From Acidobacteriota bacterium (GTDB lineage Bacteria; Acidobacteriota; UBA6911), in assembly GCA_016934555.1 (NCBI GenBank), contig JAFGSS010000205.1, positions 1 through 38,656 of the forward strand: a DNA stretch of 38,656 bases, written 5' to 3'. A model generated the notes under the pieces. The model was not told where the DNA came from, did no database searches, and was given only the letters and a program-made list of their open reading frames with translations. Position numbers and translations under genes: made by a program. How positions within the stretch are numbered: the stretch's first letter is position 1; each line of letters starts with the position of its first letter. Shown in pieces: positions 7,527-17,979 of the stretch.

Positions 7527-7633
7527 TGCCGCCGGGGGCCCCGGAAACGGGTTTTTCGCGAAATGACGTCCCGCGGAGGACGTATTGGACATGGAACGGA
7601 AGGAACATACCTGAAACAACGGAGGAATCACGC

Positions 7634-9304
7634 ATGAAGTTGCGCACAGCCATAATCTCAGTTCTGTGCCTAGGTCTCGCCTGCAGCGCCGGCATCCTGG
7701 GCACCCAGGCCTATGGGCAGGGGAAGGGAGCGGTGGAGATGCCCGAGATCACCGTGCTCAGCCCGATGGGCACCCCGCCGCCGATCACCCTGAAGGCCCA
7801 GGCCCCGCGCCTGGACACGCTCGACGGCAAGACCCTCTACCTGGTCAACACCGGTTTCGTCGGCACCGAGCGCCTGATGGAGGTCATGACGGAGTGGTTC
7901 GCGGCCAACCATCCCAAGACCACCATCGTCAACAAACGGAATCCTTCCATGGATGTCCCCAACAAGGCCCTCTGGGACGAGATCCATGAAAAGGCCGACG
8001 CCGTCATCCTCGGCCTGGGTCATTGAAGTGTCTGCGCTCCCGGGGCGGTCCGCCTCAGCATAGACATCGAACACAACTTCAAGAAACCCTCGATCCCCCT
8101 CATCCTGTCCGATTTCCACAAGCAGGAGGTGGAGGTCGCCCTCAACAGCGGCATGCCCAACCTCCGGATCCAGTATTTCCGCGGGCCAGTCTGGGGCAAG
8201 ACCAATGACCAGCTCCGCAAGCAGATCATCGAAGGGAACAACCCGATCACGGGCAAGCCCGTCATGCAGGAAATCATCGGCCACCTCACCCGGCCCCTGA
8301 CGGCGGATGAAAAGAAGACGGGGGAACTCAACCCCGGGCGGGGGCCGGCCGCCTTCACCGGCACCCCGGACGAGCTGCAGCAGCTGTTCCTCGATAAGCG
8401 GATGACCGATTTTCTGCCCATCACCCTGCCGACCGAGGACAAGGTCGAGGAGATGCTCAAGGCCACCAGCCACGAGCCGGACGAGATCCTGGGCAAAATG
8501 AACCCCGGGTCGGAAGCGGGCGACGTCTGGACCTACACCGTCCGCGACGCCGCGGTCAACGCCGTCATGGCGGGCGCGAAGCCGGAGTATTTCCCCGTCA
8601 TCCTGGCGCTCGGATCGACCGGCACCACCCCGGTGAACGTGTCCGACAACGGCTTCATGGCGGGCGCCGTCATCAACGGCGCGATCCGCGAGGAAATCGG
8701 CCTGAACTCCGACATCGGCGCCGTCGGCCCCTATGCCCACGCCAACACGGTGATCGGGAGGGCCTGGAGCCTGCTGGCCATCAACGGCGGCAACTGCGGC
8801 AAGGTGGGGACCACCTACATGGGCACGGTGGGCAACCCCGTGAACCTGACCAACATCATCATGGCCGAAAACGAGGAGAACTCCCCCTTCCAGCCGCTGT
8901 CGGTGAGGCGCGGCTTCAAGAAGGGGGAGAACATCGTCACCCTGTTCATGGGCTGGGGCATTCTCTCGGCCAAGAACTGGAAGGCCAACGTCTGGGGTTC
9001 CACGATGAACTACCCCCAGATCATCAAGGACATCTACGCCCAGCAGGACGCCATGTTCGGCACCATCGCGGTGCTGAGCCCCCCGATCGCCGACTTCGTC
9101 AAGGACGCCGGCTACGACACGGTGGAGACGTTCACCGAGTTCGTGACCGATGCCGGGGCGGCCAAGCCCAAGCCCAAGATCGGCGGATTCGGCATGCGGG
9201 GGGGCAACTTCACGGTTGTCGTCACCGGCGGGTCGAACAACAATTACTTCATGATGGGCGGCATGGTGCCAACCGTGTCGGTCAAGATCGACGACTGGCG
9301 GTAA
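7634..9304 (+). CDS. Predicted exported selenoprotein with UxxC motif (UGSC-like family), TGA codon 131 read as Sec
   Basis: Two open segments, 7634-8023 and 8027-9304, lie in one frame and are separated only by TGA at 8024-8026. Read through, they give a 556-aa protein. Residues 1-28 are a signal peptide (hydrophobic core, then AYGQG). Residues about 50-200 form a UGSC-like redox domain, with LDGKTLYLVNTGFVG, then DAVILGLGH, then Sec131-Ser-Val-Cys134 and APGAVRLSIDIE. A larger C-terminal domain follows, with DAAVNAVMAGAKPEYFPVI, GTTPVNVSDNGFMAG and NGAIREEIGLN; from memory, relatives often have Cys in the AVMAGx position. A hairpin at 8029-8066 fits a bacterial SECIS. GGAGG lies 8 nt before the ATG. 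No sel genes are in this window. The alternative is a Cys codon mutated to TGA in a pseudogene, but both halves are otherwise intact. The substrate is unknown. Confidence 0.85.
8029..8066 (+). promoter_or_regulatory. Predicted bacterial SECIS hairpin
   Basis: Directly after the TGA, UGUCU (8029-8033) pairs with AGACA (8062-8066). Inside, GGGGC (8042-8046) pairs with GCCUC (8052-8056), closing a GGUCC loop, with an optional extra G-C pair at 8047/8051. The loop guanines and U lie 21-23 nt after the UGA. The apical GC-GGUC-(C)-GC arrangement is close to the GC-AGGUCU-GC loop of the E. coli fdhF SECIS, which lies 2 nt nearer its UGA. Such a hairpin binds SelB to direct selenocysteine insertion. 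Confidence 0.7.

Positions 9305-14229: not shown

Positions 14230-17979
<3,750 letters not shown>

Follow-up and report, generated by a model that had tools for sequence, protein, structure and literature searches.

A UGA-encoded selenocysteine in a probably exported, partner-fused UGSC protein and the expansion of its family in one acidobacterial genus

In this study, we analysed a window (the whole stretch of DNA under consideration, 38,656 nt) from a member of the Acidobacteriota and found that the gene at positions 7634–9304 on the forward strand contains an in-frame UGA, at 8024–8026, which is nearly certain to be decoded as selenocysteine. The product adds a member to an already known selenoprotein family, UGSC, and does not found a new one; within that family it is set apart by being probably exported, fused to a partner domain and part of a genus-wide expansion. 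This expansion, the placement of the C-terminal domain as a partner protein, the linkage of both to thioredoxin and a remote relation to GrdB/PrdB are the new elements presented here.

The reading frame comprises 556 codons and its sole interruption is the TGA at codon 131. As the sequence-only reading had it, two in-frame halves are split by this TGA alone, with 130 residues before and 425 residues after it, followed by the stop codon TAA. A ribosome-binding site GGAGGA, assigned from sequence (7621–7626, forward strand, as are all features of this gene), is located 8 bases 5' of the ATG at 7634. The TGA provides the first position of a U-S-V-C motif, with the TGC at 8033–8035 (residue 134) encoding the probable resolving cysteine. 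The match of the Pfam UGSC profile (PF24696) covers residues 41–197 (7754–8224), TGA included, and scores 64.8 bits (E=1.4e-17, cut-off 25), confirming the earlier guess of a UGSC-like family. From comparison with three homologous genes, all carrying TGA at the aligned codon, pN/pS values of 0.33–0.48 were obtained on either side of the TGA, so that both halves are under purifying selection. Since the profile spans the TGA and selection acts on both sides of it, the two halves constitute a single protein, as had been proposed. The gene stands alone, with no operon hinting at a substrate, and its neighbours in the window (by inspection sugar-phosphate isomerase-like, AsmA-like and ABC-F-like) offer no functional hint.

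The TGA is kept at the same codon in relatives from two named Acidobacteriota MAGs, L020 (71% identity over the best segment, 76% over the full alignment) and L021 (63–64%), as well as in a paralog from the same genome (L028, 70–71%). Conservation in relatives of 63–76% identity rules out a sequencing error at 8024–8026. A survey of homologues at codon 131, which the sequence-only reading had recommended, showed this column to be occupied by Cys or Sec: the Neorhizobium galegae protein (35% identical) displays C-S-T-C, proteins from Variovorax, Arthrobacter and haloarchaea display C-G-S-C, and Acidovorax and Paracoccus carry TGA at the same column. The likewise recommended search for sel genes succeeded for selB (377 bits), selA (563 bits) and selD (369 bits, the gene itself holding one TGA) but not for tRNA-Sec, for which the two best candidates in this 233-contig draft assembly are tRNA-Ser. 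tRNA-Sec is found in nine of nine other species of the genus (69–75 bits), with anticodon TCA in four of four checked, and its absence here is presumably an assembly gap. As a separate observation, a UGSC selenoprotein gene on plasmid pFER4 of Paracoccus ferrooxidans (L143, 5393–5962) has been annotated as a pair of hypothetical proteins divided at the TGA, and selB is located about 4 kb downstream.

Directly after the TGA, a SECIS-like hairpin is predicted (8029–8066; -18 to -20 kcal/mol), whose apical loop, GUC, lies at +25 relative to the TGA. Its stability is only modestly above that of shuffled sequences (z -1.4 to -1.6; -2.0 over a wider stretch), and an Rfam search returned no SECIS family at the site. 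Among the 13 TGA-containing genes of the family in this genome, nine feature a stable hairpin with an apical loop containing G and U and starting at +18 to +26 (loop sequences in these genes being GGUC, AGUU, CGUGA and GUC), compared to 5.5% of other codon positions in the same genes. Overall, 36 of 47 mutually non-independent sequences show such a hairpin. The nominal probability of 3e-9 is optimistic, since the hairpin criterion was set after the sequences had been inspected. If the UGA were a true stop, derived from a recent nonsense mutation or from two overlapping genes, the product would be an exported peptide of 130 residues. UGA does terminate by default, and the modest hairpin (z -1.4 to -2.0) would fit termination, yet this is vanishingly improbable in the face of a TGA shared with relatives of 63–76% identity and, at the same column, with 12 other paralogs of the genome, of cysteine in distant homologues, of the Sec machinery present and of purifying selection downstream. 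Selenocysteine at 8024–8026 is thus supported as well as sequence alone can support it.

As in other members of the UGSC family (PF24696/NF041046), the score exceeds the Pfam cut-off and a strand is followed by a UxxC motif whose first residue is Sec or Cys. The motif USVC and the score against the NCBI equivalog NF041046 (UGSC_fam), which amounts to 36.4 bits and lies far below its cut-off of 125, distinguish the protein; with this low score it is an outlying member that automatic naming would miss. In the AlphaFold2 model (pLDDT 85.5), residue 131 comes shortly after a strand (residues 123–129) and a helix begins at residue 134, in agreement with the earlier placement of U-S-V-C straight after a beta strand. 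The predicted UGSC fold consists of alternating parallel strands and helices (flavodoxin-like or, more broadly, Rossmann-like), with Sec after the core strand, and is not a thioredoxin fold. Foldseek on the full model returned only Rossmann-type matches of low TM, sequence searches found no solved structure for the protein, the paralog profile or GrdB, and the Pfam search gave no thioredoxin match. The model runs contrary to the suggestion that UGSC proteins are likely thioredoxin-like (PMC2398784). With thioredoxin-fold selenoproteins (Trx-like, DsbA-like) the protein shares the UxxC redox motif, DsbA types being periplasmic as well, while it differs from them in predicted fold and in the lack of a family match. 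Residues 1–30 (7634–7723), with an n-region KLR and a mean hydrophobicity of 2.35 over 15 residues, are consistent with the signal peptide previously assigned to the first half. A hydrophobic N-terminus is also found in most copies in this genome, and the protein is likely exported.

Profile comparison by hhalign aligned the UGSC domain with a GRDB profile, built from sequences of the phylum, at a probability of 92% (score 51.9, P 6e-7), with Sec on Sec. Control scores reached a maximum of 19.7 in 60 column shuffles and 19.9 for the reversed profile, and the alignment still scores 39.9 once the U/C columns are masked. This suggests remote homology of the UGSC Sec domain to the Sec domain of GrdB/PrdB, over about 67 columns only. 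The similarity does not amount to membership of the GrdB/PrdB family: no HMMER match to GRDB (PF07355) was found in the genome, nor one to this protein in the Pfam search, and GrdE/PrdA (PF09338) was not found in the genome either. Common to both are the aligned Sec, the UxxC motif, the next helix, an E-x-x-G-I/V-P segment and, for the pair of UGSC and partner, the linkage to thioredoxin, whereas the window protein is probably exported, has no GrdE/PrdA partner or HMMER match and aligns over 67 columns. The Sec of GrdB is held to attack the substrate, and a GrdB relative has been proposed to cleave the C–F bond of monofluoroacetate (PMC10838667). As a side observation, many short GrdB-like proteins of Acidobacteriota (L069–L097) match only the last third of PF07355 and end at a TGA exactly where an in-frame U-x-x-C would continue; they are probably unannotated selenoproteins too.

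The C-terminal domain (residues 224–556, 8303–9301), described in the sequence-only reading as large and uncharacterised, indeed has no family in Pfam or NCBIfam, and Foldseek against the PDB returned nothing significant despite good models (pLDDT 85.5 and 81.1). Its best Foldseek matches, fumarate hydratase and cyclic amide hydrolase, are weak and were not believed, and a relation to GrdE/PrdA was rejected by hhalign profile comparison. The domain can nonetheless be placed, as its profile matches seven stand-alone proteins with E-values of 5e-64 or better. Such a stand-alone partner gene adjoins the UGSC gene in haloarchaea, Arthrobacter and Paracoccus. Of 22 Acidobacteriota loci with short forms, close relatives among them, 12 have the partner motif no more than about 1.5 kb away. 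Fused forms of UGSC and partner are also encoded in Neorhizobium, Variovorax and Acidovorax. The C-terminal domain is thus the fused version of a partner protein which is encoded separately beside UGSC elsewhere. Next to short UGSC selenoprotein genes of other Acidobacteriota, two partner genes (L149, 3464–5068; L150, 5300–6916) encode proteins that begin with a thioredoxin-like domain containing CPTC (Redoxin PF08534, E=3e-15), a third partner (L147, 5987–7666) carries CPTC as well, and in Arthrobacter the gene order is trxB-trxA-partner-UGSC. Thioredoxin domains are absent from the exported long forms, and a periplasmic reductant was not identified.

The genome encodes 14 members of PF24696, of which 13 (the window gene and 12 others read directly) contain a single TGA within the domain. 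Since the TGA type holds for 13 of 14 family members, the TGA of the window gene is not a chance occurrence. The motif, read in each of the 13, is always U-x-x-C (USSC twice, UDGC three times, and UGSC, UHGC, USQC, USLC, UPGC, UDSC, UWGC and USVC once each), and the 14th member, L033, displays M-G-T-S at the site. Each of the ten species of the genus (ten of ten) contains 10 to 28 PF24696 members, nearly all of them long forms of about 560–650 residues. Across the phylum, any match is found in 32 of 297 sampled genomes, and matching genomes from outside the genus have one or two members each, for the most part short forms of some 180 residues. The paralogs without TGA that were read in the genus mostly lack both Sec and Cys (S-G-M-G, K-T-S-G-S); one retains Cys alone (L-D-T-C), and a swap of Sec for Cys was seen in none of them. 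To the earlier statement that such an exported form seems little described, it can be added that the form is not isolated, with 10–28 family members per species of the genus. No record size is claimed for this selenoproteome, since selenoproteomes of 57 and 63 genes have been reported (PMC13188914).

Several further observations were made on this family. Clustered long-form UGSC paralogs without Sec, most of them also without Cys (L126, L127, L129 and L130), constitute a non-selenium branch of the UGSC scaffold, several with a twin-arginine-like signal. A UGSC-family copy common to two congeneric species (L131, G242:C14, about 2252–2773; L132, G113:C289, about 15121–15639) displays two adjacent in-frame TGAs, G-G-U-U-G-C, followed by a hairpin, and may possibly represent a tandem Sec-Sec site. 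Aldehyde ferredoxin oxidoreductase genes (L023, 7119–9164; L024, 5626–7464) neighbour UGSC paralogs at two distinct loci in this genome, an arrangement that is suggestive, not consistent.

We propose, as the reading that we consider probable, that the gene encodes a periplasmic, GrdB-like selenol enzyme of fused UGSC and partner domains that is reduced by a thioredoxin-type reductant. In this model, the UGA would be read as Sec by SelB and tRNA-Sec with the aid of the hairpin just downstream, and the exported protein would consist of the Sec-bearing UGSC domain fused to the partner domain, the latter probably binding the substrate. The selenolate would attack a small organic substrate, probably leading to reductive cleavage of a C–N, C–S or C–halogen bond, after which the product leaves. 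Cys134 would then resolve the oxidised Sec as a Sec–Cys bond, to be reopened by a thioredoxin-like reductant, and the genus would have gained its many copies to handle a range of periplasmic substrates. Reduction by a thioredoxin-type reductant is likely, whereas we only infer the enzyme activity of the window protein, its GrdB-like chemistry and the substrate-binding role of the partner domain. A GrdB-like working is suggested by the remote homology to the Sec domain of GrdB/PrdB together with the repeated linkage of UGSC and partner to thioredoxin. With the partner domain unrelated to GrdE/PrdA and no GrdE match, the helping carbonyl of glycine reductase is unaccounted for.

The UxxC motif, export, the thioredoxin and redoxin linkage of the UGSC/partner pair elsewhere and the likely thioredoxin-like nature ascribed to UGSC proteins (PMC2398784) would also fit a Sec-dependent periplasmic peroxidase or thiol-disulfide oxidoreductase, which would reduce peroxides or protein disulfides with its UxxC as in thioredoxin- or peroxiredoxin-like selenoproteins and use the C-terminal domain for specificity or docking. 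We regard this as unlikely, though deserving consideration, given the Rossmann-like model with Sec after the core strand in place of a thioredoxin fold, the lack of a thioredoxin match in Pfam and the 10–28 diverged copies per genome, which fit substrate diversity better than redox housekeeping. Even less probable is a role in substrate binding or regulation, with Sec binding metal or selenium instead of taking part in catalysis. Some paralogs of the genus without Sec and Cys (S-G-M-G, K-T-S-G-S, M-G-T-S) retain the fold and the partner domain, so that the scaffold also has a function that is not redox; however, U and C occur together in every Sec-bearing gene of this genome that was examined, as would be predicted for a redox pair. 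Extending the selenol enzyme model to the family, we tentatively consider that GrdB-type, thioredoxin-reduced selenol reductases could have a second branch, so far unrecognised, made up of UGSC and its partner, which one acidobacterial genus might have turned into a large exported family (10–28 per genome, mostly with Sec) that reductively cleaves a variety of organic compounds beyond the cytoplasm.

More than a hundred such genes across the ten genomes of the genus are probably cut in two by ordinary gene calling, and the expansion points to periplasmic selenium chemistry of an extent for which the papers found offer no description. Environmental surveys place UGSC proteins among the most frequent selenoproteins, and a fusion of UGSC to an unknown domain (UGSC/Unknown_1, not equated here with the C-terminal domain) has been on record since 2008 (PMC2398784). 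The partner gene, its thioredoxin fusions and the remote relation to GrdB now provide a concrete, testable hypothesis for the entire UGSC family which, if true, would mean that a GrdB-type UGSC family cleaves diverse compounds much like the families of reductive dehalogenases.
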